Part shown: positions 13,723 to 30,517 of the stretch, piece by piece
How the letters are laid out: each line of letters starts with the position of its first letter
Position numbering within the stretch: the stretch's first letter is position 1
From: Actinomycetota bacterium
Lineage (GTDB): Bacteria > Actinomycetota > Actinomycetes > Nanopelagicales > Nanopelagicaceae
Direction of reading: 5' to 3'
NCBI GenBank assembly: GCA_009698445.1
Contig: WLQG01000003.1
Location: 1-61,354 of the forward strand
Length of the DNA stretch: 61,354 nt
Translations under genes and position numbers: made by a program
Notes under the pieces: generated by a model
Database searches by the model: none
What the model saw: the letters and a program-made list of their open reading frames with translations, nothing else
Told to the model about the DNA's origin: nothing

Positions 13723-14652
13723 ATGGCAGAGAAATATGCCAAGCCAAATGCCGGTGTAGTTGTGCCACTCAGTGCCAGTGATGTGACTCTTGATTATTCC
13801 AGCAAGTTAGTAACTGCACAGAATTTGAATTACACCTTGACTTTGAACCCAACCAAGGCAGCTTCAGTTACATCAACATCTCTTGGACCAATTGGGATAT
13901 TGGCAAATGGAGCGGTTATTTATAATCCGTATGAAGGTGATGGAAAGACTGTTGCTGTCACTGGAAATGTGTATTTAACTGATTCCAATGGGGTTAAGTG
14001 GGGTTTTCTTGATGTGTGCAACGGCCATCCAGGAATGGGCGGCATGTACCACTATCACGGTATGCCACCGTGTGTAACTTCAGTAATTGATAAGGTCGGA
14101 GGGCCATCACACATTTTGGGATTAGCCTTTGATGGTTTCCTTATCTATGGCAACAAAGACATCAATGGAAAGCTTGTAACGTCCGCACAATTGGATGCAT
14201 GCAATGGAATTACAAGTCCAACGCCAGAGTTTCCAGCCGGCATCTATCACTATGTTTTAACTGAAGAAAAAAGTAATCGATCAACAATTAACTGCTTCGC
14301 AGGAACACCAACTTTAACTAAGGGTGGTGGACCACAACCTGGTGGTATGGGACCAATGCCAGGAATGGGTGGACCACAACCTGGTGGTATGGGACCAATG
14401 CCAGGAATGGGTGGACCACAACCTGGTGGTATGGGACCAATGGCTAGCTCAACTCCAGAAGTAAAACCCGCTGCGTCGCCTACACCAAGTTATACAACTT
14501 TATATAAAGCCGTAAAAGCCACACAACTCGTCTGTCAAAAAGGTAAAGTTAAAAAGACTGTCATTTCAAAATCTTGTCCTTCTGGATCAAAGAAAATCAG
14601 CTCAAAGACTGTTACAACATTTGTAGAAACAAAGGTTTTAGTTAACCCTTGA
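13723..14652 (+). CDS. YHYH-domain protein with Gly/Pro/Met repeats, no signal peptide
   Basis: A 309-residue protein whose first 200 residues match the YHYH domain family: GPIGILANGAVIYNPYEGDG, VCNGHPGMGG, then YHYHG, and AFDGFLIYG. Function of this family is not established; related proteins are usually secreted. AGAAGGA at 13707-13713 sits nine bases before the ATG, supporting this start. The frame closes upstream with TGA at 13696, so no signal peptide can be added. The gene is therefore either cytoplasmic or 5'-truncated. Residues about 202-240 are three copies of a GGPQPGGMGPMPGM unit. The C-terminus carries the same tail type as the Kelch protein (LVCQKGKVKKTV...SCPSGSKK), elsewhere found on secreted proteins. 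Confidence 0.8.
   Translation: MAEKYAKPNAGVVVPLSASDVTLDYSSKLVTAQNLNYTLTLNPTKAASVTSTSLGPIGILANGAVIYNPYEGDGKTVAVTGNVYLTDSNGVKWGFLDVCNGHPGMGGMYHYHGMPPCVTSVIDKVGGPSHILGLAFDGFLIYGNKDINGKLVTSAQLDACNGITSPTPEFPAGIYHYVLTEEKSNRSTINCFAGTPTLTKGGGPQPGGMGPMPGMGGPQPGGMGPMPGMGGPQPGGMGPMASSTPEVKPAASPTPSYTTLYKAVKATQLVCQKGKVKKTVISKSCPSGSKKISSKTVTTFVETKVLVNP
14326..14442 (+). repeat. 42-bp tandem repeat, 2.8 copies
   Basis: The unit begins GGTGGACCACAACCTGGTGG and starts at 14326, 14368 and 14410 (the last partial). It encodes GGPQPGGMGPMPGM in the YHYH protein. Copies are essentially identical, so copy number probably varies by slippage. Confidence 0.9.
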
Positions 14653-14663
14653 AGAGAACTTTG

Positions 14664-15860
14664 CTACCAACCGACCGCGGCATGATCTGTAGAACAATCA
14701 CCATTTCCTTGATTAGCTAAGCACGTTACGTCATAGCCACTTCCGTTATCTCTAGTTTCGAGCGTGAAGTAATTAACGGCAGCCAAAGGAAGGCCGCGTT
14801 GGGTCACTGAATCCCATGCGTTGTGTCTAATTAGATATAGCGAAGCGTTCTTTAAATTCGAATATGAAATATCTGTAATTTCCAAAGCTTCCCACTGAGA
14901 TGACCTACCAAGAACCTTCAATACACCCTGTGGAGAGGTTGAGATGGCAAAACCCCAAGCAGTGTTATACGCGTCTGTGAAATTGAATACAGGGTTACTG
15001 TTAAAAACTAAGTACAATGGAGATGTTATATCAGCACCAACTGTTAGATAAGCAAAATCTGTCGAAGATGTAAAGGCACGCAGAATCACTGCCTTTTTCT
15101 CACACGTTGGTACCCAAATATTGATTGAACTATCCCAGTACTCCCCTGGGTGGTTATCAATTTCAGATTGTGACTTACCGGTATTAGAAGGGTCACCCGC
15201 TGGCGTTAAATCCAAATTACTAATAACTACACGCTCCATCGAGTAATATCCATCTATAAGAGTTGAATACGGCGTAACAGTTATTTGGCTATCGCAGCTT
15301 GTTGACATTGAAATTGGTTGTCCCGAAATTACACTCTGATTCTCAATGCTCTCGATAGTAATTCGCTCAACATCACTTGCAGCAATATCAGGCGAAGTGA
15401 AAGTTAGAGTTATCGAACTATTGGTTGAATTTAAATCGCTTTGCTCTATGCTGCCATCAGGGCTGCTAAAAGATGTCGGGCTTACATATATTGAATATGA
15501 AGGTGAAAGTAATTCGCCATTTTTCTTATATGCCTTAATGGTAAAGGTCTTAAAAGCACACCCTGGATCACCAGATTCTTCCTGTATTGTGGAATCTACG
15601 TTGGATAAAGAAATGCTTGAGAACTTAAATTCCCCAACACCCGAATTATCGAAAGTTGAGTATGGCGCTAAGACAATTGAATTATCACAAGCAGTGGTTT
15701 GCGCCACCCCTTGGCCAAATTCAATTGAGTTATCAGTATTAAGGGTGATCAAAGAAGCGACAGCGATTCCAATTGTTGAGATAAAAAATGCAACAGAAAT
15801 GCCAATCAATAATGCAGGAGATTTCTTCTTTGGTGGTTCCTCGAAATTCAGAATGCTCAT
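14664..15860 (-). CDS. EFGQG-family surface protein 3, duplicated two-Cys module
   Basis: Start ATG 15860 gives MSILNFEEP, matching MSLLNF and MPTLKF of the paralogues; longer in-frame starts were rejected. The 398-residue protein has a hydrophobic segment ending SLITLNTDNSIEFGQG, then TTACD, a second Cys in DPGCAFKTFTIKAY, and DVERITIES. A second copy of the module follows immediately (STSCDSQITVTPYSTL, then PTCEKKAVILRAF), so this member holds the domain twice in tandem but the signal only once. The last 100 residues are distinct (CLANQGNGDC) and unrecognised. It diverges from surface protein 4 over a 174-bp shared upstream region, which suggests common control. Surface anchoring is inferred. 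Confidence 0.75.
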   Translation of the reverse strand: MSILNFEEPPKKKSPALLIGISVAFFISTIGIAVASLITLNTDNSIEFGQGVAQTTACDNSIVLAPYSTFDNSGVGEFKFSSISLSNVDSTIQEESGDPGCAFKTFTIKAYKKNGELLSPSYSIYVSPTSFSSPDGSIEQSDLNSTNSSITLTFTSPDIAASDVERITIESIENQSVISGQPISMSTSCDSQITVTPYSTLIDGYYSMERVVISNLDLTPAGDPSNTGKSQSEIDNHPGEYWDSSINIWVPTCEKKAVILRAFTSSTDFAYLTVGADITSPLYLVFNSNPVFNFTDAYNTAWGFAISTSPQGVLKVLGRSSQWEALEITDISYSNLKNASLYLIRHNAWDSVTQRGLPLAAVNYFTLETRDNGSGYDVTCLANQGNGDCSTDHAAVGW

Positions 15861-16034
15861 AGATTCCCACGTCCCATTTGGGCATGAAGGTACGACGAAT
15901 CGCCGTAATACTTCTTCGAAGAAATCACGGGCGAATTGTCTCACCGCTGGGGCAATTCGCCAGACCCCCAAGCGGCTTAATGGCGGGTGAACTTCCTCGG
16001 TTCACGCTCAAATGCCATACTTGGAAATGTGAGT

Positions 16035-17276
16035 ATGTTCAATTTCGGCCCAGGAGGCTCAACAACGCCCACCCGAAAGATCTCGAGAAAGCTTTTTTCC
16101 CGCATAGCCCTAATTGCTGCCTCTTGCGCAGTCATAGCTAGTTTGAGTTCAACGTTTGCTGCCAATATAAATATTAATTCAGGCCCAATTGAATTTGGAC
16201 AAGGTATAGCACAAACAACTGCATGTTCTGGTGAAACTCCAATCGTGATTACTCCCCAGGCAAGTTTTATCAACCAAGAATCTGGCGGAGGCTTCGAATT
16301 TTCCTCTGTAAAAGTTTCTAACATTCCAGATTCATGTGATGGTAAAGATTTCATAATAAAAGCTTGGGGGGCGAGCGGAGACCCATTGTCCCTAGTAGGT
16401 AGTTGTGCTTATCCTGGAGCAGATGACAGAGCACTAGTTTATTTTGATGGATCTGTAGTGGATGATAATTCTGAAGTGCCCCCTCAAATACTTGCAATCG
16501 TCACCGGTGCACCATGGAATGTCGCACGATTTGGAGCAGGCAGCCCAGCAGGTTTTGCAGCAACTTATCGCGCTGACAATGCAACAGGATTGTCGGAAGT
16601 CACCGGCGATAGCTTCACATTAAAAATTCATGACTTTTTTTACTGTTCACCAACAGATGGTGCTGAAGCACGAAGTATTTCAAGAATCACGATTGAGACT
16701 GCTGAGGGCATGAGCCAGTTGCTCTCCTGTGCCGATGGCGGAGCTTGCACCATCGGAGACACAGGTCCTGGGGGTGGGTATATCTTCTACATAGATGAAC
16801 CTGATGATTTTGATTGGAATTACTTGGAAGTTGCACCAACAAATTTCGATGGTAATGGAATTAATTTCTGTACCTACAAGGATGGTTTTCCATTAACGGA
16901 CAGTGGTCCAACTGACGATAATCCTGCATCAAACCCATTTGCCACTGCCATAGGAACGGGTTTTGAAAATACAAACAAATTAGTCAATAACTGTGATGGC
17001 GGCGCGGGAGTACAAGCGGCCAATTACACGAGTCCAAATGGCGTAGATGATTGGTTCCTGCCATCTAACGATGAATTAGAACTATTGCTTCCATTAAAAA
17101 CTATTTTGGGAATAGATTCATCAAACTATTGGTCATCTAGTGAAATGTCGAAGTTAGTTGCACCTAGCCAAGCTGCACATACATATGGGCGCCAATGTTG
17201 GTTTGGAACTGGGCAAGTTTGTGGACTTGGTTCGATGGCCGGTGCCTATAAAGTTCGACCAATTAGATCCTTCTGA
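16035..17276 (+). CDS. EFGQG-family surface protein 4 with Lcl_C/DUF1566-like domain
   Basis: Start ATG 16035 (MFNFGPGGS) was chosen because it places the basic stretch and hydrophobic segment as in the paralogues. The 413-residue protein has STFAANININSGPIEFGQG, TTACSG, a second Cys at DSCDGKDFIIKAW and closes the module with SRITIET. A two-Cys insertion (GSCAYPGAD to FYCSPTDG) is unique to this copy. The C-terminal domain starts IGDTGPGGGYIFYID and carries DDWFLPSNDELELL, NYWSSSE and YKVRPIRSF, the Lcl_C/DUF1566 pattern shared with surface protein 2. It is the only family member on the plus strand. A glycan-binding surface role is inferred from the domain. Confidence 0.77.
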   Translation: MFNFGPGGSTTPTRKISRKLFSRIALIAASCAVIASLSSTFAANININSGPIEFGQGIAQTTACSGETPIVITPQASFINQESGGGFEFSSVKVSNIPDSCDGKDFIIKAWGASGDPLSLVGSCAYPGADDRALVYFDGSVVDDNSEVPPQILAIVTGAPWNVARFGAGSPAGFAATYRADNATGLSEVTGDSFTLKIHDFFYCSPTDGAEARSISRITIETAEGMSQLLSCADGGACTIGDTGPGGGYIFYIDEPDDFDWNYLEVAPTNFDGNGINFCTYKDGFPLTDSGPTDDNPASNPFATAIGTGFENTNKLVNNCDGGAGVQAANYTSPNGVDDWFLPSNDELELLLPLKTILGIDSSNYWSSSEMSKLVAPSQAAHTYGRQCWFGTGQVCGLGSMAGAYKVRPIRSF

Positions 17277-18765: not shown

Positions 18766-20154
18766 ATGAAACTTAAAGGCTTTAAGTTCACTATGGCGTT
18801 ATTAACGTCAATGATTTTGCTTGCACCTATTCTTATTAGTCAACAAAGTTTTGCCGCGTCGCCTTCACCTTCACCTTCTGCAAGCTCTTCAGGTGGACAA
18901 GGAACAGCTCCGATTCAAACTATCGCCCCCGTTTATCCAGATACAAATGTTCCTCAGATTATTTCTCTTTCAACCTCTGGAGAAAAAACTGACAACCTCT
19001 ACACACTAACTGTCCAGCTTGGCGTTCGAGTACATCGCAATACTTTGTCATCGGTGACCATCACACTTCTTCCCCGAATTGATGCTGGAGCCTTAGTTGA
19101 CCCGATTTTTCAGGCCCCATGTACAAAGCTTGGGCAAATTTCCTCCACAACGCTTGCACCAACTGGTGAACTGGCAAGCCTTCAGACCCGTTCGGCTGAT
19201 GGAGATTGGTATAAAGAAAGCTATGTATTTTCATCTCAAACTAAACTACCTGCAGGCCAAAACATCTGCCTAGGCAAATATGTAATTACTGCAATTAATA
19301 TTGTTGATGCTGCAAAACATACACTTGTTATTACAGCAAATCAGGCATCAACTACATCGGCCAAATCTACTTTCAATGATGTTGCGACTCAGAGTTCGAA
19401 TATCTGGGCTTCACACCTGGAACTAGCTAAGTGCCCCCAGGCAGTAAACGCTAACCCTGTAACCACTACTTCAGGCGGTAAAACAACTACTACAACTCCG
19501 GTAACTTCTGCCTCACTTCGCACAACTTGTGATCACACCATCAACTTTGCAAATGTTTATTTAACGGCAGTAGCAGATACTTCAATTGGTGGCACCGGAG
19601 CTACTACGTCAACTGGCACATCCACATTACCCATTGTTGATTATGTTTCCCAGGTAAAGTCAGCTCTTGCAGAGAATGTAAGAATGAAAAGCCAGCAAGA
19701 CCAGATGACTAAACAAATTGAATCACTACAAAAGCGCATTGAAATTTATCAGGGCGGCGGAAAACCAACTCCCGATCCATCTTCGTCAGGTTCATCTTCA
19801 GCCCTACCAATTGTTGATTACCAAAAGCAGGCCAAAGAGTTGCAAGCACAAGTTGATGCACTGAGTAAGCAGTTGGCTGCATTCATGGGTAAGCCCACAG
19901 CTAAGGCAACTTCAAAAACTGTGGTCAAAAAGCCCACAGCTAAGGCAACTTCAAAAACTGTGGTCAAAAAGCCGACAACTAAAGTAACTGCAAAACCTAC
20001 GTCAAAACCAACAGCAAAGAGCACTGCCAAATCTTCAGTTAGTGGATCGAATAGAAATGGTCAGGGATCAAATGGTTCCGGTCAGGGTTCAAATAGAAAC
20101 CGCAATAACCGTCAGTCCAGATCTCCATCACCTGCTGCAACGATTAAGAAATAA
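18766..20154 (+). CDS. Secreted stalk-like protein with coiled coil and Lys-rich tail
   Basis: Unrecognised 462-residue protein. Signal peptide residues about 1-30 (MKLKGFKFTMALL...SFAAS) lead into a Ser/Pro spacer. A beta-rich domain of about 200 residues follows, with single Cys residues in QAPCTKLG, QNICLGKY, LAKCPQ and RTTCDHT. A Thr-rich linker then leads to two IVDY-containing segments (LPIVDYVSQVK, LPIVDYQKQAK), each followed by heptad-like coiled coil (EQ-rich, KQIESLQKRIE). The C-terminus is basic: repeated KPTAKATSKTVVK units and a Gly/Asn/Ser-rich end. Such tails may bind anionic wall polymers or glycans, which is inference. AAAAGGG before the ATG is a plausible ribosome-binding site. 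Its stop lies one base from the stop of the convergent operon. Confidence 0.65.
   Translation: MKLKGFKFTMALLTSMILLAPILISQQSFAASPSPSPSASSSGGQGTAPIQTIAPVYPDTNVPQIISLSTSGEKTDNLYTLTVQLGVRVHRNTLSSVTITLLPRIDAGALVDPIFQAPCTKLGQISSTTLAPTGELASLQTRSADGDWYKESYVFSSQTKLPAGQNICLGKYVITAINIVDAAKHTLVITANQASTTSAKSTFNDVATQSSNIWASHLELAKCPQAVNANPVTTTSGGKTTTTTPVTSASLRTTCDHTINFANVYLTAVADTSIGGTGATTSTGTSTLPIVDYVSQVKSALAENVRMKSQQDQMTKQIESLQKRIEIYQGGGKPTPDPSSSGSSSALPIVDYQKQAKELQAQVDALSKQLAAFMGKPTAKATSKTVVKKPTAKATSKTVVKKPTTKVTAKPTSKPTAKSTAKSSVSGSNRNGQGSNGSGQGSNRNRNNRQSRSPSPAATIKK
19891..19968 (+). repeat. 39-bp tandem repeat, two exact copies
   Basis: The unit starts AAGCCCACAGCTAAGGCAAC at 19891 and again at 19930; a degenerate third begins at 19969. 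It encodes the KPTAKATSKTVVK segment of the Lys-rich tail. Confidence 0.9.
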
Positions 20155-20155
20155 C

Positions 20156-20512
20156 TTATAAACCTACTACGTTAAGAATTAAACCTACAAAGGGCAATAC
20201 TAAAATAAGTTTGCCCTGAACATTTTTGGTATCCACTCGCTGCAGCGTTGTTCCTGCTTGAATATCAACTGAAGTTTTATCAGCGTTGATGACAATTGCT
20301 AAGGCAGGGTCGCTATCTTTAATTCCAGTCGTGACAACAATTTTGTCACTCTTTGCAACTTTAGAAGTGTGACGGTAAACGGCAACGCTGGATGAAGCGG
20401 ATCCGAGTGCACTCTTTAAACCAGATTGTGGATGAGAAACACGCAGCCCAAAAGCTGATAGAAGAAGGCAGGCAAGGACAACGAGGATGGCTGGGCGAAT
20501 AATTTTGCTCAT
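20156..20512 (-). CDS. Signal-peptidase-like membrane protein without catalytic residues
   Basis: Last gene of the operon led by the SipW-type peptidase, 118 residues. It has a signal-anchor (residues about 6-24), a beta-rich outside segment and a hydrophobic end. The pattern KSDKIVVTTG near the middle and VDTKNVQGKLILVLPFVG at the end resemble KKGDVVAYTG and ITGVVIYTIPFIG of the operon's own signal peptidase. The catalytic SMSP and SHR motifs are both absent. It could be an inactive S26-type partner or chaperone; this rests on short similarities only. The start is ATG 20512. The leader motif CTACGGAGAG lies 17 bases upstream. Confidence 0.5.
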   Translation of the reverse strand: MSKIIRPAILVVLACLLLSAFGLRVSHPQSGLKSALGSASSSVAVYRHTSKVAKSDKIVVTTGIKDSDPALAIVINADKTSVDIQAGTTLQRVDTKNVQGKLILVLPFVGLILNVVGL

Positions 20513-20529
20513 AACTATGCTCTCTCGTT

Positions 20530-20539
20530 CTCTCCGTAG
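20530..20539 (-). promoter_or_regulatory. Leader motif CTACGGAGAG, third copy
   Basis: Identical ten-mer as before two metallopeptidase-operon genes, here 17 bases from the ATG at 20512. The spacing is too wide for a standard ribosome-binding site, so a binding-site or mRNA role is more likely here. Confidence 0.35.
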
Positions 20540-20543
20540 GGGA

Positions 20544-20570
20544 AAAGTCTAGCGTGAAGGTTTAGACTTT
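20544..20570. other. Inverted repeat AAAGTCTA / TAGACTTT
   Basis: Two perfect 8-bp arms (20544-20551 and 20563-20570) around an 11-base loop overlap the stop codon of the Lys-rich protein gene inside the operon. It may form an mRNA hairpin that separates expression of the last gene, or protect a 3' end. Confidence 0.4.
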
Positions 20571-21346
20571 ACGCTCTTCTTGCCTGTTTTAGAGGCAGAG
20601 ATTTTCTTAGGGGCAGGCTTTCTTGTGGGACTCTTGGCAATTTTTGACTTGGTGACCACACCTTTGTCCCCTGTTTGAATTGAAGCCGGCTGATCATTTT
20701 TGTCAGATTTGGGGCCCGCCCCAAATCCTACAGATTTTTTAGAATTTTTATTGAGAATCTGATTGAGCCATTCATCAACTTCGCTATCAATATCGTCTTC
20801 TATTTTTGCCGCAGCTTTAATTTTCTTCGCAGGTATAAATTTTTTAAGATTAACTCTGGGCATAACTTTTGAGAAAGGATTTGATTTAGTCTCTTGTGAG
20901 TTTGAAACGGTTGAATCATCTGCGCTGCTATATACCGACGAAGTTGTAACCTGCTTTTGATCCTTTTTTCCAGCCTGGCCTTTAAAGTCAAATAGCCACT
21001 TGAATCCGTAAACAATCTTAGGAACGATGGTCTTTAACAAAGCACCTGGGTCTTTAATCAGATCAATGATCGATTTTTCTTCAGCCGCAGCAGTTGCCTT
21101 GAACTCTTCTGTAACAGTTGCTTCTAATTCGGCATTAGTCATTCCCAACATCATTCGATTGGTTCGAGAATCTGGGCGACCAGTTCCACGCCAAGTAGCA
21201 ACTTCAATTACCGTTCCATGAGTCATCTTTCCTACAACCAGCTTTTGCCCATCTGGAAGGTCGATAACAAGCGCAGAGTCTGAAACAGGAACTGGAATCC
21301 TAGAGACGACAGGGGCAGCAGGTGCCTCGTTCTTCTTTTTAGCCAC
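20549..21346 (-). CDS. Lys/Ser-rich protein of unknown function in the signal-peptidase operon
   Basis: 265 residues, no recognised family and no signal peptide or transmembrane segment. The first 60 residues form a beta-type pattern (ALVIDLPDGQKLVVGKMTHG) slightly like the N-terminal cytosolic part of the operon's signal peptidase (VLITISNVIGEKTVFI). The middle is acidic and helical (EVDEWLNQIL), and the last 60 residues are Lys/Ser/Pro-rich and probably disordered (KPAPKKISASKTGKK). Start is GTG 21346, 18 bp after the collagen-like gene, so it is almost certainly co-transcribed. A cytoplasmic adaptor for the export or assembly of its neighbours is possible but unsupported by any motif. Confidence 0.6.
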   Translation of the reverse strand: MAKKKNEAPAAPVVSRIPVPVSDSALVIDLPDGQKLVVGKMTHGTVIEVATWRGTGRPDSRTNRMMLGMTNAELEATVTEEFKATAAAEEKSIIDLIKDPGALLKTIVPKIVYGFKWLFDFKGQAGKKDQKQVTTSSVYSSADDSTVSNSQETKSNPFSKVMPRVNLKKFIPAKKIKAAAKIEDDIDSEVDEWLNQILNKNSKKSVGFGAGPKSDKNDQPASIQTGDKGVVTKSKIAKSPTRKPAPKKISASKTGKKSVKSKPSR

Positions 21347-21364
21347 TTAGTTCATCTGCTTTCT

Positions 21365-22516
21365 TTAGGGTTTCACAAATTCAAAAGCGATGGAATCGGC
21401 AAGGTCTCTGGTACTGACCGATGACACGTCTTCCAGGCTTAATTCTGGCCAATTCATGATTAAAGAATAATCAGTACCATTTGAAAGCTTGCAAGATACT
21501 CGTGAGTTCCATTCTCCATCGCCAAGGACGTAATTCACATTTAAATGATTACCAATCTTTAGATCGATAACTTTTTTATTATCTCGAGTGGATCCAGCAA
21601 AAGTTACCGCCACACGATCTATATTGGCTACATCAGTTGAGTCATAAATTCTTGAACAGACAATTGACTGACCCCCCGCATAGCCCCCATTACTATAAAA
21701 GATCGGTGACGCTTTAATTGCGAGGTAAATGGTAAATTTCATACCTTCCTTTAAGCAATCAGTATTTACGTTCAATAACGTCACACTATCTAGGAAAAAT
21801 TCTTTACGCTTATTGTCATAGTGATGCTGCAAAGTCGTCGTAACTGGATCTGAACAACCATTTACGGCTACTGCAGATTGTCCTTCAGCTGCCGTGCCAC
21901 CACCTGAGCCATCTGCACCATTGCAGACATATTCAATTACTTTTTGATCCCCGTCACCTGACTCAAGTTTCTGGCCCCCATTTGCAGGACATGCTTTGAC
22001 GCCTGGACTTTTTTCAACAGTCTCATCAATTTGTGTAATCGTCACACCAGGGCCTCGTGGACCAGTTCCGCCTGAAGGTCCTGTTGCACCGTTACATGCA
22101 AAGGTTGAATTTCCATCGGCAGTAACAAATTTTGCGCCGCCATTTGGGCATGACACATCACCACTAGCAAGTATTACTGAAGCAACTCCAGCACCTGCAG
22201 GTCCGGCAACTCCTGCAACACCTTGAATTCCTTGTGGTCCTTGTGGTCCAACTGGACCAGGTGCTCCTGGCAATCCATCTTTTCCGGCAACTCCATTCAT
22301 GCCAACAAAACCATCTTTACCAGCAACGCCAGCTACACCCGGTTTGCCTTGTGGTCCAACAAGTAATGCGAGTACCTGATTAACGTTTACATTATTTACG
22401 GAAGACCCAAGAAAGAAGTTCTGAATATCTAAACCTTTGGTTGTATCAGGAGATGCATACGTTGTTCCAACGCGCGTCAGTAGTAGGACGATTAAAAAGA
22501 ATGAAAACTTCTTCAT
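21365..22516 (-). CDS. Secreted collagen-like (Gly-X-Y) protein
   Basis: 383 residues. A signal peptide ([17 protein letters not shown], cleaved near TYAS) is followed by a short helical region. An uninterrupted Gly-X-Y tract of about 50 residues begins [17 protein letters not shown] second shorter Gly-rich stretch ([15 protein letters not shown]) and a GSGGG hinge separate small two-Cys units of the type CPNGGAKF...FACNG and CPANGGQK...VCNG. A C-terminal beta-rich head domain of about 170 residues holds four or more Cys. Collagen-like tracts in bacteria form triple-helical stalks at the cell surface. The ATG overlaps the stop of the membrane-protein gene (ATGA) behind a strong AGGAGGTGG, giving a secure start. 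Confidence 0.82.
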
Positions 22517-24090
22517 TTCGCACCCACCTCCTGGCTCTCGGAGACATCATAAAGGCTACTGAGCACAGAGTGAAATAAGAGCGGCAGAAAACCTAGAGCA
22601 AGCAATATTTCTGACTTATGTATGACCTCGTTGGGAGTCTTGGACACGATCCAGTGGGCTCCAAATGAAATCACGGTGACCACTACAGCTTCAAGGTAAA
22701 TATGGCGTCGCCATTTTGCGAGAGCAGCAATTTGTGGGCTTGAGAATCGAAAGACTAATAAAGCAAATGGAACAGTCAATATTGCACCTGGAATTAATGC
22801 ACTGGACAAGGACTGTGTCCAAACAAAAATCACGCTGGTAATAAAGACAGCCATTACCGCCACAACAATGGGAGAGATCAATGAAACTACTTGGAATTCT
22901 TCGGTTATGTAATGTGAATCTTCTTTTGTGAGTAGTTTTTGATCTTGCCTTTCCCAGAGAATTTCTTTGGCTATAAATAGCAGGGCAACTCCTGCTGAGA
23001 CAAGAAGCAGTTGTACTGTGTTGGAGCGAATTTCAGTAGTTAAACTGTCGGCTAAACGTTGCATAAAGAAGAAGAATGCGCCTGCAACAAATGCACTTGG
23101 AATTATTAGCGCCTTAGTCTTAGTTGGGTTATTCGCTCTATTGGCATCAGGAGTGATGTCATGGCGTGAAGCTAGAAGGAAAAACTCTGCAAGCAATGCC
23201 GAAAATGCCCAAGCTGTGCCTAGACAAATTAAAATCAGTACTGATCTAACGTTTGTAATATTTCCAATCATTATTTGTGCAGAGGCAAATGCAAAAACTG
23301 CAAATAATCCGGAATAAGAATCTAGTAAGCCAATAACTGCCAATACTATGACTGCGTACATTGGAACTACAGATGGCCCATCTCCTGAAACAAATCCACA
23401 GATAAATCCAACAGCAATTCCAATTGCAGGTAGCAAGGCCCACAAGACCGGTGAGAGTCTATGAGTGAAGTTTCCATCACGCTTAACTAGATAATTAAAA
23501 AGTCGCGGCTTTTGTTCCTGAAAACCTGCATCGCGAAGCTTATAGATTTTATACAAAATGGAAGGGAATCGGGTATCGGCTACAAGTGACTCTGTCTCAA
23601 CAAGGTTTTTCTCGCGAATAAATCTCAACTTTGAATACTTCTTTGATCTCGCCACAGAAAATGCAGTAATAATAAAAGTTAGCCACAATAAAAGGCTCTT
23701 TAAATCAGAAGGTATCTGCGTAATTGAATAGACCGTCATGGCAGTTACATTCACACCTGCTACTACTGATCCACCATCGGCCCCTTCACCGAATACTTCT
23801 ATCGTGTAATAGCCAACTGGAAAATCAGCTGGTATCGGCACGGAATAGACTACGTATCCGGTTGTACTAACCGTACTTCGCTTAAAAGTTAATGGTGCGG
23901 TGTCTTTGCTCAGTAATTGAATAGACCAAGTTGGAGGAATTGAATTTCCTCCCAAAACGATGTTTTGTTCTTTACCGCGCTCCCACGTCAAGAAGGGAAT
24001 ATCAGCAGCCGTTGCTGCCGGTACTGAAAAAATTAGGAAAATGGCGGCCAGTAGCGAGCCGATTAGTTTTTTACTCACCTTTGAGCGCAT
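22513..24090 (-). CDS. Signal-peptide-bearing polytopic membrane protein, unknown function
   Basis: About 525 residues. A cleavable-looking signal (KKLIGSLLAAIFLIFSVPAATA) precedes an extracytoplasmic beta domain of about 100 residues (LTWERGKEQNIVLGG ... GYYTIEVFGEG). Roughly ten to eleven membrane spans follow, with a cytoplasmic loop (RFIREKNLVETESL) between spans 1 and 2. The order outer sensor or scaffold domain plus channel-like membrane part suggests an assembly or export component; no family was recognised. Start may be ATG 24090 or GTG 24078; both overlap the end of the signal peptidase gene. Translation is coupled downstream to the collagen-like gene. Its fixed position between peptidase and collagen gene argues for a shared pathway. 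Confidence 0.6.
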   Translation of the reverse strand: MRSKVSKKLIGSLLAAIFLIFSVPAATAADIPFLTWERGKEQNIVLGGNSIPPTWSIQLLSKDTAPLTFKRSTVSTTGYVVYSVPIPADFPVGYYTIEVFGEGADGGSVVAGVNVTAMTVYSITQIPSDLKSLLLWLTFIITAFSVARSKKYSKLRFIREKNLVETESLVADTRFPSILYKIYKLRDAGFQEQKPRLFNYLVKRDGNFTHRLSPVLWALLPAIGIAVGFICGFVSGDGPSVVPMYAVIVLAVIGLLDSYSGLFAVFAFASAQIMIGNITNVRSVLILICLGTAWAFSALLAEFFLLASRHDITPDANRANNPTKTKALIIPSAFVAGAFFFFMQRLADSLTTEIRSNTVQLLLVSAGVALLFIAKEILWERQDQKLLTKEDSHYITEEFQVVSLISPIVVAVMAVFITSVIFVWTQSLSSALIPGAILTVPFALLVFRFSSPQIAALAKWRRHIYLEAVVVTVISFGAHWIVSKTPNEVIHKSEILLALGFLPLLFHSVLSSLYDVSESQEVGAK

Positions 24091-24784
24091 CCAAGACAAG
24101 CCAAAAACCAAAGATGAGTGGAACCAAAACAATTAATGCGCGGGGAGTAAGAATCTTTCCTATAAATGGAATTGTGTAAATAACAACGCCAGTGATGTCA
24201 GGAATCTTCGGATGCTGGACGTCTGGGGTTGGGTTTGCATCACCTTTTACGATGAAACCAGTTTGTGCATCTCCACCGATAATTCTGTGCGAGAAGATTC
24301 CAACAGAACCGCCATCAAATCGGCGTCCGGTATAGGCGACCACATCACCTTTTTTCGGGGTCATCTTTGCTGGAGGAACTGTCAAAATAATGTCACCTGG
24401 ATTAATAGTTGGTGACATAGAACCAGTCAATACAATTCTGGCTTTGATTACACCGCTTACACTCATTGCAGAAAAAGTAAGCAATACAGCTGCCAAGACA
24501 TATCCAGTTATCTTGACGGCAGAATTTACTCTTGTGTACCAAATTTTATTTCCAGCAACCACGCGCTCTGGTGGGGCTTCTACAAAAAGGCTTGCCTTGC
24601 TTTCAACGATCCTATTAGGTGTTATAAAAACTGTTTTTTCGCCAATTACATTAGAAATAGTGATCAGAACATTCGCGTCAGTAAAATCAGGAACCCCATC
24701 AATCCACATATCCTCAGATTCTGAGCCCGGGAAAAGCGCTCGAGCATTCTCGGATGGCACCATCGCATCCTTATCTTCATTCAT
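24071..24784 (-). CDS. ER/SipW-type signal peptidase I
   Basis: Membrane serine peptidase that removes signal peptides on the outer face of the membrane. The 237-residue sequence has an unusual cytosolic N-terminal part of about 90 residues and TM1 (about 91-110). The box TGSMSPTINPGD follows, with Ser122 as nucleophile. GDVVAYTGRR and SHRIIGG carry His166 in place of the bacterial general-base Lys, so it is of the archaeal/eukaryotic SipW class; FIVKGDAN supplies the Asp and IYTIPFIG the end of the fold. A C-terminal TM closes the chain. In Bacillus, SipW matures the fibre protein TasA. Here it heads a five-gene operon with a collagen-like protein and lies among seven EFGQG-family genes, which are candidate substrates (inference). 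Confidence 0.88.
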   Translation of the reverse strand: MNEDKDAMVPSENARALFPGSESEDMWIDGVPDFTDANVLITISNVIGEKTVFITPNRIVESKASLFVEAPPERVVAGNKIWYTRVNSAVKITGYVLAAVLLTFSAMSVSGVIKARIVLTGSMSPTINPGDIILTVPPAKMTPKKGDVVAYTGRRFDGGSVGIFSHRIIGGDAQTGFIVKGDANPTPDVQHPKIPDITGVVIYTIPFIGKILTPRALIVLVPLIFGFWLVLDALKGE

Positions 24785-24861: not shown

Positions 24862-26790
24862 TTAAGGGGTAACGGTTATCCGACCTGAAGTTGCTGAGCC
24901 GGCCGAGTTTGTGACAGTTGCAGAACTAGTTACTGCCCCTACAGGGATAGTAAATCTAATTTGAGTGTCACTAACGACAGTAAATATTGGCGCATTGACA
25001 GTACCTAATTTGACTGACTTAGTTCCGGTAAACCCGCTTCCAGTCAAAGTTATTTGTGCACCAATAGCTGCAGAGGCAGGAGATGGCGAACCTGTAATTC
25101 TTGGAGCACGAGTAGCCGCAACTTTAAACGTCGGTGTCGGTGTCGGTGTTGCAGAGGGGCGTGGTTGCGGAGTAGCCACAGACTTTGTTACCACAACAGC
25201 TTTAGTTACCAAGACAGTGTAATTCTTGATGGTTGTTCCATTTTGAGCAGTAACTTTAAAGTTAAAAGTGTTTAACCCCGATACCAGAGTCTCATTTCGA
25301 AGCGAACCACTGCTAATCGAAGTATAGGTTCTGATGCTTGCATTACAACAAAAAGTAATTGATGCATTTGCACTTGCAGTGGGCGTGAAATTTATTGAAC
25401 TTACAGTTTCAGAGACTGAAACTTTAATAGTCGTCGTATCTAAAGCCGTTACCGGGGCAGAGACAGTTCCAGGAGAAATTACAAATGTTAATCCCGCTTC
25501 AGCAGATCTGGGGGGCGCAAGTGGAGAAGATAAAGCACTTGGCGCAGAATCTGTGAAATAGATCCCATCGCCAATTGCAAGTAATTGAACTTTATATTCC
25601 GTGCCTGCTTCTAAACCAGATATGGTATCTCCGGATTGAAAGTCTTCGATGTCTGATCCAATTTGCGTGATGCCATCTGATGCTAAATAAACTTTTGCTG
25701 TATACGTCGCTGCATTTGGATCTGCAGTAAATGCTGCTGTTAATGAAGTTGATGATCCAGTCACTACTGACAAAGTTGGTGCTGAAGGTGTGGGTAAAGT
25801 AGGTGTTACATAACTAATATAGACAACTCCGCTAAATCCATTTCCACCTGCAGATGCATATGTAAGCGCGTTTGAGTGACCTCCGCCGCCGCCGCCGCCG
25901 CCGTAAGAGATCGCATCTCTATTGTTGCCAGCTATTCTGGATTGACCCTCACCGCCGCCACCTGATCCACCAGAACCGCCAGTTAAAGAGTTGCCGGTGG
26001 TTGTACTAGTCATACCACCACCGCCGCCGCCGCCATAAATTACATTGCTTCCAGTTATATCCGATGTAAAACCAGAACCGCCATTACCTCCTGAGCCACC
26101 AAGATTTGGAGCATCAACTCCATCGGATCCATTTCCCCCAGCGCCGGCACCACCGCCAGCGGCATCGTATGCATTTAATCCGACGGTGGTATTTGTTTGC
26201 GATCCGTTGACGATGTTTCCGGATAATCCGCCATCTCCAGAACAACTTGCAGATGGTGCCGAGAGGCATTGTGCGGTTCCAACTCCACCACCACCACCAC
26301 CTGGTGCGGTGTAGGTATCAGTAATCACAATTGTTGTCGTACCACCAGAGGTTCCAGGAGAAGTTTGATATTGACCAGTTGCAATTACTGCAGCACTACC
26401 AGATCCTGCAGATCCTGCAGTAACCGTAATTTTTCTGTCAGTAGGAACACTTGTTTCTGTGGTTCGGCTCCAAACATAACCGCCACCGCCACCGCCACCA
26501 GGTGCGCCTCTTTTAAGAGATGTCGTTCCACTGTTATTTCCTAGCGAGGCTCCACCGCCACCGCCACCGCCACCGACCATTAATATTTTTGAAATTGCTG
26601 TAACACCGTCTGGAATCGACCATGTGCATGCTGTGGTATTTACAAACTTAACTACCGTTTTTCCTGCGCCATCTCTAAATAAATCTGGGGTACATGTGGG
26701 GAGCATCGGTGCAGCAGATGCGCTTGTGGTTACTGAGAACAATGAAGTCACCAAAACACTAATAAGGAGTGTGTGAAAAATTCTTTTCAT
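24862..26790 (-). CDS. Secreted glycine-rich protein with fibronectin-like, cadherin-like and IPT/TIG domains
   Basis: 642 residues from ATG 26790; an in-frame TTG 15 bases upstream is less likely. A signal peptide (MKRIFHTLLISVLVTSLFSV...ASA) leads to a short Cys-containing domain (TCTPDLF ... TACTWSIPDGV). A glycine-rich region of about 240 residues follows, with many runs of five to eight Gly (MVGGGGGGGG), as in fibre-type Gly-rich domains. Then come a fibronectin type III-like domain (TPSAPTLSVVTGSSTSL), a cadherin-like beta-sandwich ending NYTVLVTK, a Pro/Thr linker and a C-terminal IPT/TIG domain (PRITGSPSPASAAIGAQITL). This is an adhesin or matrix architecture. Its stop is 77 bp upstream of the signal-peptidase start, in the same direction, so co-transcription is possible. 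Confidence 0.78.
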   Translation of the reverse strand: MKRIFHTLLISVLVTSLFSVTTSASAAPMLPTCTPDLFRDGAGKTVVKFVNTTACTWSIPDGVTAISKILMVGGGGGGGGASLGNNSGTTSLKRGAPGGGGGGGYVWSRTTETSVPTDRKITVTAGSAGSGSAAVIATGQYQTSPGTSGGTTTIVITDTYTAPGGGGGGVGTAQCLSAPSASCSGDGGLSGNIVNGSQTNTTVGLNAYDAAGGGAGAGGNGSDGVDAPNLGGSGGNGGSGFTSDITGSNVIYGGGGGGGMTSTTTGNSLTGGSGGSGGGGEGQSRIAGNNRDAISYGGGGGGGGHSNALTYASAGGNGFSGVVYISYVTPTLPTPSAPTLSVVTGSSTSLTAAFTADPNAATYTAKVYLASDGITQIGSDIEDFQSGDTISGLEAGTEYKVQLLAIGDGIYFTDSAPSALSSPLAPPRSAEAGLTFVISPGTVSAPVTALDTTTIKVSVSETVSSINFTPTASANASITFCCNASIRTYTSISSGSLRNETLVSGLNTFNFKVTAQNGTTIKNYTVLVTKAVVVTKSVATPQPRPSATPTPTPTFKVAATRAPRITGSPSPASAAIGAQITLTGSGFTGTKSVKLGTVNAPIFTVVSDTQIRFTIPVGAVTSSATVTNSAGSATSGRITVTP

Positions 26791-26952
26791 TAAATTAGTT
26801 CGCAAGCTTTTTTAGATGGCGCAGAAAATCTAAGGTTTCCAGACTCTTGCTCTGCCATTAGCCTCTCCATGCCTCTCACCCTAACAGGGGGCAAGAACCC
26901 CGTCTATTTTCACAACTCTTAAGACAATAATACGGCGCAAGTTAGTTGAGTT

Positions 26953-27564
26953 TTAGCCTTCAGAAGCGGCCACATTGTTTGGCCCTGATTCAATAGTAAG
27001 GCTGTACAAGTCGGGCCAATGCGATTGGGGGTACAAACTGAAGTCAACGGTGATACGTCGAGTATCTGGGTCGATGCTAAAGGCGATTGGAGCTCCTGGG
27101 ATTGGAGCACCGAATTCATCTAATGACTCCTCAATTGGTGTTCCATTGTCATCTACCAGCTGAATCGAGCCGTACTCATCGACGTTTAAAGAAACTTGAA
27201 AAAAAGTTGTTTCCGGGGTTGCTGGATCCGTGGAAGAAAACAGAGGGATCGGTTCACTCGATAAGTTTGAAAACGCCTTGAAGTGCAACAACGTTGATCT
27301 ACATTGGTCTGGGTCGACGCCATCAATTAAAAATCCGGTTATGGGAGAGTATCCAGAGGCATCAGGTGACACGGTAGGAATTTGAATCTGTACCCAACCA
27401 TTACATGCTTCTACTGCGTAAACACCTTGACCAAATTCAATTCTATTGCTGCCATTAATTGAGATATTTGAAGCATATGTTGCACCCACTGCGACCAGCG
27501 CAATTATTAATAGGCCGATCCTTAAAGGAATGGGCTTTTTCTCCGGCTCTGAAAAATAACTCAT
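26953..27564 (-). CDS. EFGQG-family surface protein 5 (short form)
   Basis: 203 residues, only the basic family module. A short cytosolic start (MSYFSEPEKKPIPLR) and hydrophobic segment end GATYAS. NISINGSNRIEFGQG, then EACNG and a second Cys in DPDQCRSTLLHFKAF follow, and the module ends LYSLTIESG. No extra C-terminal domain is present. Lying 20 bp behind surface protein 6, it forms a two-gene unit with it. The 147-bp gap downstream towards 26806 shows only a GGGG/CCCC mini-hairpin. Its simplicity makes it a candidate for the polymerising or structural subunit of the family (inference). Confidence 0.72.
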   Translation of the reverse strand: MSYFSEPEKKPIPLRIGLLIIALVAVGATYASNISINGSNRIEFGQGVYAVEACNGWVQIQIPTVSPDASGYSPITGFLIDGVDPDQCRSTLLHFKAFSNLSSEPIPLFSSTDPATPETTFFQVSLNVDEYGSIQLVDDNGTPIEESLDEFGAPIPGAPIAFSIDPDTRRITVDFSLYPQSHWPDLYSLTIESGPNNVAASEG

Positions 27565-27584: not shown

Positions 27585-28283
27585 TTATCGAGTTGGGTTG
27601 TTAACAGTTTCAACCGTTGTGCGGCCAACAATCTGACCATCGATATTAACTATGAGACCAGTTGGGTCAAGATAGAACGTTACATCTGCAGAATCAGATG
27701 CTAGATCAGAACCGTCATAAACAGAAGTGCCCGAAGTATTCAGTGAAACGGCAGCATCCATGTTAGATGAAATAAAAGTTCCATCTCCGGTTAAGTAAGT
27801 AAGTGCAAGTCCAGCAGCATCTGAAGTACTAACAGGTGATTCGGTATCTGGCAATGAAATTTGCAGAACGTGGGGCATTGTTGTCTCATCAGCAGATGCA
27901 CCGATAGGAATTTCAACACCGTTGGTATCAATTAAACGAATACGTAATTTTTTGCCCTTGCAACTAATTAAATCCAAATTCGATACGGTCACTGATTTGA
28001 CGCGAAAGAATCCCGCAGATGAATCAGTTTCAGTAGGCGCTGAATGCCACTCTTCGCTAATGGCTGCAAATACATTTGGATCACATGCAACCGCTTGCTG
28101 TGAACCTTGACCAAATTCAAGAGCACCATTTCCAACAGTGACGCTAGCTGCAAATGTTGAAAGAACAAATGGCACAATGCCAATCATGAGAGTTCCAACA
28201 ACAATTTTGTTTTTATAACGCCCGGAGCCGCCAAAGCCAGCTCTCACTTTGCCACTTAAAGGTGAATTCAAGTTACTTGCCAC
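27585..28283 (-). CDS. EFGQG-family surface protein 6 (short form)
   Basis: 232 residues from GTG 28283, which is preceded by AAAGGAG at suitable distance. The cytosolic start (SGKVRAGFGGSGRYKNK) is longer than in siblings. The hydrophobic segment ends STFAAS, followed by VTVGNGALEFGQG, VACDP and a second Cys in LISCKGKKLRIRL. The module closes with TGLIVNIDGQIVGRTTVETVN, a diverged version of the RITIES end. It is the most divergent copy (LEFGQGSQQAVACD). Co-transcribed with surface protein 5. The gene has 55 bp before the stalk-protein gene upstream, which runs in the same direction, so a three-gene unit is possible. Confidence 0.72.
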   Translation of the reverse strand: MASNLNSPLSGKVRAGFGGSGRYKNKIVVGTLMIGIVPFVLSTFAASVTVGNGALEFGQGSQQAVACDPNVFAAISEEWHSAPTETDSSAGFFRVKSVTVSNLDLISCKGKKLRIRLIDTNGVEIPIGASADETTMPHVLQISLPDTESPVSTSDAAGLALTYLTGDGTFISSNMDAAVSLNTSGTSVYDGSDLASDSADVTFYLDPTGLIVNIDGQIVGRTTVETVNNPTR

Positions 28284-28338: not shown

Positions 28339-29166
28339 TCAGCGCTTAAGCTTTATGTCACCTTTCTTCAAATCTAATGTCACACCAAGGGGGCGAAGGA
28401 CGGTCGTGCGGGCATTTTTAGGCTGGCCCTGGGTACAAAAATCCGCCCTTAAGGTTGGCATTGACACAGCCACGAAACGCCAGGCGACTTCCGCCCCCGC
28501 AGCTGAGCCGGTTAGTGAATATGTGGCCAATCCTCCTCCGCCATTGATGATGGCGGCAACTTGCTCAGCACTTCCGGTGATGGATACAGCATGCGTTAAA
28601 TCTCCCGAGACCATAATGTCTCCGGCAAAACTAGAGTCGATAATTCCACGTGCATAAACATCGAGTAATAATTTATCGCTAGTGATACATGCCAGTACAA
28701 GAGCAGGTGAAGTCATAATAATAGGTGGGAAATAAAGTCGAGTTGCCCTGGGATCAAGATTTAAACTCGCAGGAATATTAAGTTTGAAATTTTGGGCAGA
28801 GACCGGAAGCACTTTAGGGGTCGGAGATGGTGATGGTGAGGCAGATGTAGATGCAGATGATGAAGCCGTGGCAGATGAAGTTGGGACTGGGGCATTTGAA
28901 GTTGGGGCCGGATCTGATGGAATCGGTGACAACGTAGGCGTCGGGGTTGGTGAAGCTGACGGCGATGCTTCGACAGTCGGTGTGCCTGTTGGCGTAGGAG
29001 TACTAGTAGCAGATGCGGATGCAACTGGGATTTCTGGGGAAGGAGAGTTTTCTTCAGCCAAAGTTGGAGCAATTTTTGAAAAAATAAGCGCCACGACAAT
29101 CAAAGCACCAAAGCGCATCGCCAAATTAAAGCGGCGGCTTTGTGAGCGGGAGTTGAGCGGAGACAT
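28339..29166 (-). CDS. Secreted Ser/Thr/Pro-rich stalk protein
   Basis: 275 residues, no recognised family. A basic start (NSRSQSRRFNLAMR) and hydrophobic segment (FGALIVVALIFSKIAPTLA) form a signal or anchor. Residues about 40-120 are almost only Ser, Thr, Pro and Ala (PTPTGTPTVEASPS), a likely extended and possibly glycosylated stalk. A C-terminal domain of about 150 residues contains LYFPPIIMTSPALVLACITSDK, GDIMVSGDLTHAVSITG and a second Cys in LRADFCTQG. It diverges over 74 bp from the MotB-like pair, so the two units may share regulation. Surface display is inferred from composition. Confidence 0.65.
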   Translation of the reverse strand: MSPLNSRSQSRRFNLAMRFGALIVVALIFSKIAPTLAEENSPSPEIPVASASATSTPTPTGTPTVEASPSASPTPTPTLSPIPSDPAPTSNAPVPTSSATASSSASTSASPSPSPTPKVLPVSAQNFKLNIPASLNLDPRATRLYFPPIIMTSPALVLACITSDKLLLDVYARGIIDSSFAGDIMVSGDLTHAVSITGSAEQVAAIINGGGGLATYSLTGSAAGAEVAWRFVAVSMPTLRADFCTQGQPKNARTTVLRPLGVTLDLKKGDIKLKR

Positions 29167-29240: not shown

Positions 29241-30005
29241 ATGGCTAGAGCGAAAAAGAACCAAGAGCACATCGAACACCATGCGGCTTTGCAAGCGTGG
29301 GCAACTAAATACAAGGTGCTCAGTGACCCTTACGTGTCAGGATTGTTGGACGCCCTTGAAAATCGCCGCAATCTATCTATGTGGGCAACTCTTTCGCCAC
29401 TGGAATATCTGCCTCAACCATCTTTGCATGGTGAAAAATCGAGAGTTTTATTTTGGTTCACCCTTTTGCGCAATACTTTAATTTTCGCCCCTGTTGCTTT
29501 GACGTGGGCCGCCGTTGGAAATGCCACAACTGCCTTTGGAATCTATGTTGGGCAAAATGCTGGTGCAGTGGTTAACTTCCTCGAGTTCTGGCAAAACGGT
29601 TATGGTGTTTTGTCAAAAAATTGGACTATCGGACATATTGCAACTCTCGACTTCATCATGATCGCAATGGTAATTGTCTTAATTGTTTTTCTGCACTTTG
29701 CAAATGAGCGCGAACACCTGCGCTTTCGTAGTGTTGAAAATGCCGCTGATACCGAGCGGATTAAAATCGCTATTGAGCTTCATGCATATCTTTTCGATAA
29801 GCGTGCAACATCAAATGTTAAAATGAATGAAAATTTAGCAACTGCAACACAGGACTTACTTCGCACATCCTCATCTCTTGAAAAAACGGCAAAAGTAATT
29901 GAGAAGTCAACGAGAGAGACTCCTACAAATAAGCAGATTATGGCTGATCTAAAAAACCTGATTAAAGCTAAAAAACCAACGCGGTGGGATTCATTTCTAG
30001 AATGA
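29241..30005 (+). CDS. Membrane protein with two spans and cytoplasmic coiled tail, partner of a MotB-like protein
   Basis: 254 residues. The N-terminal 60 residues are cytosolic. Hydrophobic spans lie at about 66-90 (LLRNTLIFAPVALTWAAVG) and 137-160 (LDFIMIAMVIVLIVFLHF). They are separated by an amphipathic loop with Gly/Asn/Trp, and a helical, charged C-terminal tail of 90 residues follows. The next gene starts inside its stop codon and encodes a MotB/ExbD-type single-span protein, so this gene occupies the place of MotA, TolQ, ExbB or ZorA. It has fewer spans than MotA, and no direct family match was recognised. It is proposed, as inference, as the stator-ring partner of an ion-driven two-component motor. 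The ATG has no strong ribosome-binding site. Confidence 0.6.
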   Translation: MARAKKNQEHIEHHAALQAWATKYKVLSDPYVSGLLDALENRRNLSMWATLSPLEYLPQPSLHGEKSRVLFWFTLLRNTLIFAPVALTWAAVGNATTAFGIYVGQNAGAVVNFLEFWQNGYGVLSKNWTIGHIATLDFIMIAMVIVLIVFLHFANEREHLRFRSVENAADTERIKIAIELHAYLFDKRATSNVKMNENLATATQDLLRTSSSLEKTAKVIEKSTRETPTNKQIMADLKNLIKAKKPTRWDSFLE

Positions 30006-30517
30006 GATCTAGGCGCATTGAAAGAGTAATTGAAGATGACATGGTCGACAAGGCGGGTTGGATGTATGCCGATCTCTTTCTCGGCCTTATGGTGATTTTT
30101 CTTGCAACTATTTCATTTGTGCCTGAAATTCGTGATAATTCAAATGCAAATGCGGGAAATCGCGTAAGTAGCAACACAATTAGGCAAAGCACAAGTTTTA
30201 ATTTCGATAAAGGCTTAACCATTGTTATAAATACACCTGATGTACTTTTAATTGAAACACGTATCAAATCTTTCCTGGCTGGCGAAAGACTGCCACTGGA
30301 TTCTCAGATAGTTTTTGTGAAATTCATCGGCGGATATGACCCAATAAATGAACGAGTCTCCGATGGCGCAACACGTGCACTCGAATTTGGACTCAAACTA
30401 CGCGCGGATAACCCAAAGTTATTTGCTAATGCTACGAATAGCGCAGATGCCAGCCCTGATATTGCCTCAGGACAAGTTGCGGTAGTGCTTACTTTCTCGT
30501 CCCCGCTTAAAAAATAA
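30002..30517 (+). CDS. MotB/ExbD-like single-span protein
   Basis: 171 residues from ATG 30002, which overlaps the previous stop as ATGA. Residues 20-40 (WMYADLFLGLMVIFLATISF) repeat the hallmark of MotB, W-x-YAD-L followed by a hydrophobic span, with Asp24 in the place of the proton-carrying Asp. A linker of about 35 residues follows, then a short periplasmic-type domain with IVFVKFIGGYDPINERVSDGATRALEFG. This vaguely recalls the OmpA/MotB fold but is shorter and lacks the usual peptidoglycan-binding signature. No flagellar gene is present in the window. Possible roles are energising a surface apparatus or a Zorya-like defence pair. The Asp-containing motif is seen directly; motor function is inference. 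Confidence 0.65.
   Translation: MRSRRIERVIEDDMVDKAGWMYADLFLGLMVIFLATISFVPEIRDNSNANAGNRVSSNTIRQSTSFNFDKGLTIVINTPDVLLIETRIKSFLAGERLPLDSQIVFVKFIGGYDPINERVSDGATRALEFGLKLRADNPKLFANATNSADASPDIASGQVAVVLTFSSPLKK

Follow-up and report, generated by a model that had tools for sequence, protein, structure and literature searches.

What does a signal peptidase of the SipW/endoplasmic reticulum (ER) type contribute to a planktonic actinobacterium that would be expected to secrete its proteins with the ordinary Lep enzyme? The question is raised by contig WLQG01000003.1 (61,354 nucleotides; hereafter the window) of the Nanopelagicaceae assembly GCA_009698445.1, a 1.34-Mb genome that is 84.7% complete, in which five minus-strand genes (24784 down to 20156) encode this peptidase, a polytopic membrane protein, a collagen-like protein, a lysine (Lys)-rich soluble protein, and a small protein with the look of a signal peptidase. 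The answer considered probable here, with moderate confidence, is that the cluster is a dedicated module for the export, trimming, and assembly of surface fibres made of secreted subunits of the EFGQG family, with the collagen-like protein starting or capping the fibre. This reading is based on gene order, protein families, predicted folds, and co-occurrence, from which we infer cleavage by the SipW-type peptidase, donor-strand polymerisation, and the roles of the accessory proteins.

The gene cluster and its signal peptidase

The original prediction described five tightly packed minus-strand genes, the first encoding a SipW/ER-type peptidase with Ser122 and His166, the third a collagen-like protein, and the last a signal-peptidase-like protein without catalytic residues, and interpreted them as a self-contained matrix-assembly module with a dedicated peptidase. 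The observation itself is confirmed, all five open reading frames (ORFs) being present at the coordinates first given, and the interpretation is partly supported. The polytopic and collagen-like genes overlap by 4 bp, and gaps of 18 bp and then 36 bp follow the collagen-like gene going downstream. Overlaps and gaps thus do not exceed 36 bp apart from the variant in which the polytopic ORF starts mechanically at a TTG codon and overlaps the peptidase gene by 62 bp; the GTG at 24078 is the likelier start because the signal peptide begins there, and the overlap is then 8 bp. Since promoter-like and terminator-like sites were not more frequent than in shuffled sequence, or were close to that frequency, no transcript ends are claimed.

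The peptidase scores 59.9 bits against TIGR02228 (archaeal/ER-type signal peptidase I), above the NCBIfam cut-off of 51.85 bits, and 30.7 bits against the Bacillus SipW equivalog NF046067, below the cut-off of 190 bits. Its nearest solved structures by sequence are human SEC11A and SEC11C (E = 3e-7). Ser122, His166, and Asp182 do not vary among 11 relatives, and the strict catalytic pattern is matched by 39 of 43 peptidases; three others carry the residues by eye, and the fourth is a fragment at a contig end. SEC11A/C is the general secretory enzyme of the ER, whereas the cluster peptidase is an extra one beside Lep, which is also present in all six genomes tested. A cytoplasmic extension of ~85 amino acids at the N-terminus of the peptidase is conserved; homology of this extension to the Lys-rich domain encoded downstream was rejected (none by hhalign).

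Conservation of gene order and co-occurrence with EFGQG genes

Ten further species of the genus carry the peptidase gene next to the polytopic gene, which in one of them is interrupted by a contig break; nine of the ten have the collagen-like, Lys-rich, and small genes downstream, and in the remaining one the contig ends. At 37 named loci from Nanopelagicaceae (freshwater Actinobacteria of the acI group), the genes follow one another as EFGQG, peptidase, polytopic, collagen-like, Lys-rich, small for as much of the cluster as each contig covers; the sole departure is the divergent locus L106, where the polytopic gene stands apart. Wherever sequence ahead of the peptidase gene is available (34 loci), EFGQG genes are its immediate upstream neighbours. 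These 37 loci partly overlap the other genomes surveyed, so that neither count is independent of the other. When 251 genomes were drawn evenly from the order and the polytopic gene was counted at E<1e-80, EFGQG genes occurred in 34/34 genomes with the polytopic gene versus 11/217 without it (Fisher p ~1e-32, uncorrected for shared ancestry). The Lys-rich gene accompanies the cluster in 33 of the 34 genomes and did not turn up in any complete cluster-negative genome searched, and the SipW-type peptidase was never seen without EFGQG genes in the survey. Two incomplete EFGQG-only genomes (G006 and G049) were rejected as counter-examples, their clusters being cut off by contig ends.

Conserved order could also arise through plain operon inheritance of unrelated secretion genes, with the peptidase handling general secreted proteins. 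The restriction of the order to one bacterial family would agree with such an explanation, which is nevertheless judged very improbable: the cluster is patchy (~34/251 genomes), its flanks are several and differ between lineages (e.g., response-regulator or kinase-like genes adjoin some copies), its genes are gained and lost together with EFGQG genes, and ordinary Lep is present in each of the six genomes tested for it. The five genes form a conserved unit as originally proposed, but that unit was drawn too narrowly, since the EFGQG genes, the gene for a secreted protein rich in Pro and Ser that recurs ahead of them (28339-29166 in the window), and usually a divergent membrane pair (29241-30517) belong to it.

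One genome with a standard cluster has another, divergent one at locus L115 (G168:C17), in which the collagen-like gene opens with a stretch that by eye resembles a J domain. Public records of metagenome-assembled genomes labelled Streptomyces griseus or Bifidobacterium breve (L071, L076, and L102) carry the acI cluster, and the labels look wrong.

EFGQG proteins as likely clients and putative fibre subunits

The genome has ~15 EFGQG genes, seven of which are inside the window. In an alignment of 82 domains of the family, two cysteines never vary, and an E-x-G-Q-G segment just after the signal peptide is nearly always kept. The family has no good match in Pfam or NCBIfam, gave matches at chance level only when its profile was searched against PDB sequences, and was found nowhere outside Nanopelagicaceae in the class survey. 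Ahead of the putative cut site, residues follow the pattern G/L-S-T-[LF]-A, with Thr at -3 in 85/106 and Leu, Phe, or Tyr at -2 in 98/106. The cleavage-region motif occurs in 59/125 EFGQG and 15/33 collagen-like proteins versus 2/136 other secreted proteins and 0/48 proteins of the polytopic family. Because they share a motif seldom seen in other secreted proteins, the EFGQG and collagen-like proteins are the likely clients of the peptidase, as had been suggested. The third client then suggested is not supported: the 647-residue secreted Gly_rich_2 protein encoded between the EFGQG genes and the peptidase (24862-26805) has a Lep-like signal peptide ending in ASA, has no counterpart at the equivalent place in the other loci compared, and was rejected as a core member. 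L106 and L124 also encode Gly-rich domains, in one instance as part of a fusion with the polytopic protein.

The AlphaFold2 model of an EFGQG core (predicted local distance difference test (pLDDT) 82) consists of a beta-sandwich that begins at about residue 24 and is mostly near 90 or above, preceded by the mature N-terminus (residues 9-20), which is the most conserved stretch of the protein and is disordered in the model with pLDDT below 50. The matches listed by the fold search are generic immunoglobulin (Ig)-like ones and do not include TasA. A strand that is conserved yet left unplaced would be expected in the monomer of a subunit that donates this strand to its neighbour.

In another family of the class, a SipW-type peptidase is fused to an EAL domain (PF00563, E = 9e-26; L050:8806-10200), and a faint match to the EFGQG core (E = 1e-5) lies ~3 kb from this gene. 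An EFGQG-like protein of ~211 amino acids, found at L053, L054, and L055 in a common neighbourhood without the cluster, represents a separate sub-family.

Collagen-like, pseudo-peptidase, and polytopic proteins

The collagen-like protein comprises a signal peptide, ~19-24 Gly-X-Y triplets (PF01391, E = 1.9e-8, 34.4 bits versus a cut-off of 27.2 bits), and a C-terminal beta domain of the EFGQG type. As this domain is homologous to the EFGQG core (hhalign probability 96.4, E = 1e-9) and includes a GQG-like remnant, the protein combines, by sequence, a triple-helical stem with the domain of the putative fibre subunits, and it is a candidate for starting or capping fibres.

The small protein is related to the peptidase only weakly by sequence (hhalign P = 1e-4, probability 56%), a suggestive result, and its nature is clear by predicted fold. 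The AlphaFold2 model (pLDDT 80) matches LexA (Z 9.2), SEC11C (Z 9.0, 116 residues), and SEC11A (Z 8.4), with Streptococcus pyogenes SipA also among the best matches (4n31; Z 8.2, 85 residues, 2.9 A). No catalytic set of Ser, His, Asp, or Lys is conserved in the alignment of its relatives, whose invariant columns are limited to H27, G31, G37, G100, P107, F108, and G110, with H27 preceding the position of the catalytic Ser. The model thus indicates a signal-peptidase fold without catalytic residues, in agreement with the description first given. The neighbouring Lys-rich protein, which is probably cytoplasmic, has a strictly conserved N-terminal domain of 50 amino acids (LVIDLPDGQK...VIEVATWRGTGRPDSR) and a Lys-rich tail. 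That domain and the small protein form one polypeptide in L106, L115, and L127, with a transmembrane (TM) segment between them, a fusion which suggests that the two proteins act together across the membrane.

The polytopic protein consists of a signal peptide, an outer beta domain with a TWERGKEQ motif, and ~10 TM segments; no relative was found in the viral contigs searched, and its profile gave chance-level matches only in the PDB sequence search. Because most of its distant relatives elsewhere in the order are encoded just behind, or overlapping with, genes for giant fn3/Ig-repeat or ice-binding-like proteins, the family seems to provide surface proteins in general with a membrane partner and may have been recruited here for fibres. 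The same relatives allow a different explanation, in which the dedicated peptidase processes monomeric or wall-bound EFGQG surface adhesins that are held by the polytopic protein and do not polymerise, given that outside the cluster the polytopic family appears to serve single surface proteins and that numerous EFGQG proteins are extended by large C-terminal domains. In the monomer model, however, the conserved N-terminal segment has no structural role, and a polymer is where one would sooner expect tandem core-only EFGQG genes, a collagen/EFGQG hybrid, and a SipA-like protein; the adhesin explanation is considered the less likely one.

Relatives of the polytopic gene at L108-L114 (genomes G101, G119, G053, G151, G269, and G146) are mostly situated just downstream of giant fn3/Big/He_PIG-repeat genes or of genes with the ice-binding-like PF11999, often with a start-to-stop overlap at the junction.

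Proposed assembly pathway and comparison with known systems

Under the fibre-assembly reading, Sec would export the EFGQG pre-proteins and the collagen-like protein, and the SipW/ER-type peptidase would cut after a site of the G-S-T-[FL]-A type, freeing an N-terminal beta-strand (A-N-I-x-L-N...EFGQG). By donor-strand complementation of the kind known from TasA, the freed strand could then complete the Ig-like sandwich of the following subunit, and the collagen-like protein, with its EFGQG-type domain behind a triple-helical stem, may start or cap the fibre. The well-conserved EFGQG protein that adjoins 28339-29166 would be the likely anchor subunit (the product of 27585-28283 is a candidate for the anchor or first subunit), and EFGQG proteins with extra C-terminal domains might be displayed as binding heads. 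The polytopic protein would provide a membrane platform, the dead peptidase-like protein may retain clients at the membrane, as proposed for SipA in streptococcal pili, and the Lys-rich protein could be its cytoplasmic partner beneath. As far as can be inferred, the module would work in the manner of TasA with unrelated subunits.

The cluster is like tapA-sipW-tasA of Bacillus subtilis in encoding an ER-type signal peptidase together with fibre subunits as its (here presumed) clients. The signal peptide of TasA ends in a small residue followed by Thr, an aromatic residue, and Ala, an ending that resembles the pre-cut motif of the EFGQG proteins. In both systems the donor strand would lie at the mature N-terminus: in TasA it is formed by residues 28-38, the N-terminus left after removal of the signal peptide, as determined by cryo-electron microscopy (PMC9674648), whereas in EFGQG proteins it is predicted. 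Unlike TasA, the EFGQG subunits fall outside the TasA/camelysin family and are Ig-like rather than jelly-roll proteins, and the present system goes beyond the TasA operon in its polytopic partner, collagen/EFGQG hybrid, Lys-rich protein, dead peptidase, and ~15 subunit genes in the genome. SipA, too, has the fold of a signal peptidase but lacks the catalytic residues, is encoded alongside genes for a surface polymer, and is essential for pilus polymerisation in S. pyogenes (PMC4049620); its setting is that of sortase-built pili, whereas no sortase or LPXTG pilin was detected among the cluster proteins scanned. Donor strands at the N-terminus, as proposed for EFGQG, also join the Ig-like or pilin-like subunits of chaperone-usher pili and of Sulfolobus threads (Saci_0406), the latter likewise using a type I signal peptidase (PMC9715654), but no chaperone or usher was recognised and no sequence relation to these systems was found.

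Several results weigh against the fibre-assembly reading. EFGQG genes occur without such a peptidase in G106 (a closed genome with one EFGQG gene), G133 (95% complete, eight), G123 (99% complete, two), G204, and G217, and the EFGQG pre-proteins of peptidase-less genomes keep a similar cleavage region. Since good genomes without the peptidase retain EFGQG genes and Lep is present wherever tested, Lep may process some EFGQG proteins. The idea of a dedicated peptidase thus stands insofar as the enzyme accompanies EFGQG genes wherever it was seen, but exclusive processing is contradicted. Additionally, none of the 82 EFGQG domains matched the TasA/camelysin Pfam families, no EFGQG protein matched the curated models of SipW clients, the best PDB match of the Ig-like fold (Z 6.3) is generic with none specific, and a pLDDT below 50 at the end of a chain does not prove a donor strand.

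If the reading is correct, some species with a genome of 1.3 Mb would devote ~15 subunit or adhesin genes to it, a heavy investment in surfaces, contact, or defence against grazing. A subunit family unrelated to TasA would join the SipW-linked fibres, and the active and dead signal peptidases of one operon would allow what dead peptidases do in fibre assembly to be tested in bacteria other than streptococci. No paper on the cluster was found, and surface fibres of this kind are not reported for these bacteria in the literature searched. Only tentatively can the system be called an undescribed class of bacterial fibre in planktonic acI, with donor-strand Ig-like EFGQG subunits freed by an ER-type peptidase, nucleation by the collagen/EFGQG hybrid, a platform of polytopic and dead-peptidase proteins, and, in most genomes, coupling to the motor-like membrane pair.

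The divergent membrane pair

The pair encoded at 29241-30517 recurs on either flank of the cluster and is found in 24 of the 34 cluster genomes; outside these it occurs in just two genomes, both with a cluster cut off by a contig end. In addition to fibre assembly as proposed above, and not in exclusion of it, the pair might be an ion-driven motor of the MotAB/ZorAB type that energises fibre export or retraction. This linkage to the cluster, the absence of the pair from the cluster-negative genomes listed, and an invariant Asp in the TM segment of the 29984-30517 product would suit such a motor, as would the weak matches at the same TM segment (PADLOC ZorB, E = 0.0098; Pfam MotB_plug, E = 0.2; PDB 8qyd, E = 0.69). 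Every one of these profile matches is far from significance, however, the partner protein has just two evident TM segments and no match to MotA/ExbB, and the pair is missing from ten cluster genomes; a motor role is a guess, and rather an improbable one.

Features of the window

Table 1. Positions of the cluster genes, EFGQG-family genes, and associated genes in the window
Feature	Position	Strand	Basis or remark
SipW/ER-type (S26B) signal peptidase	24071-24784	minus	TIGR02228 above cut-off; SEC11A/C nearest in PDB; catalytic residues invariant
Polytopic membrane partner	22513-24132	minus	signal peptide, outer beta domain (TWERGKEQ motif), ~10 TM segments
Collagen-like protein	21365-22516	minus	PF01391; hhalign to EFGQG family; triplet counts
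Lys-rich soluble protein	20549-21346	minus	conserved N-terminal domain; fused to small protein in L106, L115, L127
Pseudo-signal-peptidase (small protein)	20156-20512	minus	one TM segment and LexA/signal-peptidase-fold domain, without catalytic residues
EFGQG-family secreted protein, best conserved	27585-28283	minus	58-70% identity to counterparts; adjoins 28339-29166 in clusters
EFGQG-family secreted protein, candidate fibre subunit	26953-27564	minus	
Pro/Ser/Thr-rich secreted protein, conserved C-terminal domain	28339-29166	minus	ahead of EFGQG genes
Two-TM protein with coiled coil, first gene of divergent membrane pair	29241-30005	plus	
One-TM protein, invariant Asp in TM segment (GWMYADLxLxLMVIFLATISFVP)	29984-30517	plus	weakly MotB/ZorB-like
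EFGQG-family protein	2184-3200	minus	core (2670-3080) used for structure model
EFGQG-family protein with sub-threshold C-terminal Lcl_C-like domain	12393-13655	minus	
EFGQG-family protein	14664-15971	minus	
EFGQG-family protein with sub-threshold C-terminal Lcl_C-like domain	15987-17276	plus	
EFGQG-family protein	30521-31651	minus	

A YHYH-domain protein (PF14240, E = 5e-27) is encoded between EFGQG genes at 13723-14652. The gene at 18766-20154, which is convergent with the cluster and ends 1 bp away from it, encodes a secreted coiled-coil protein with a Lys/Ser-rich repeat tail.

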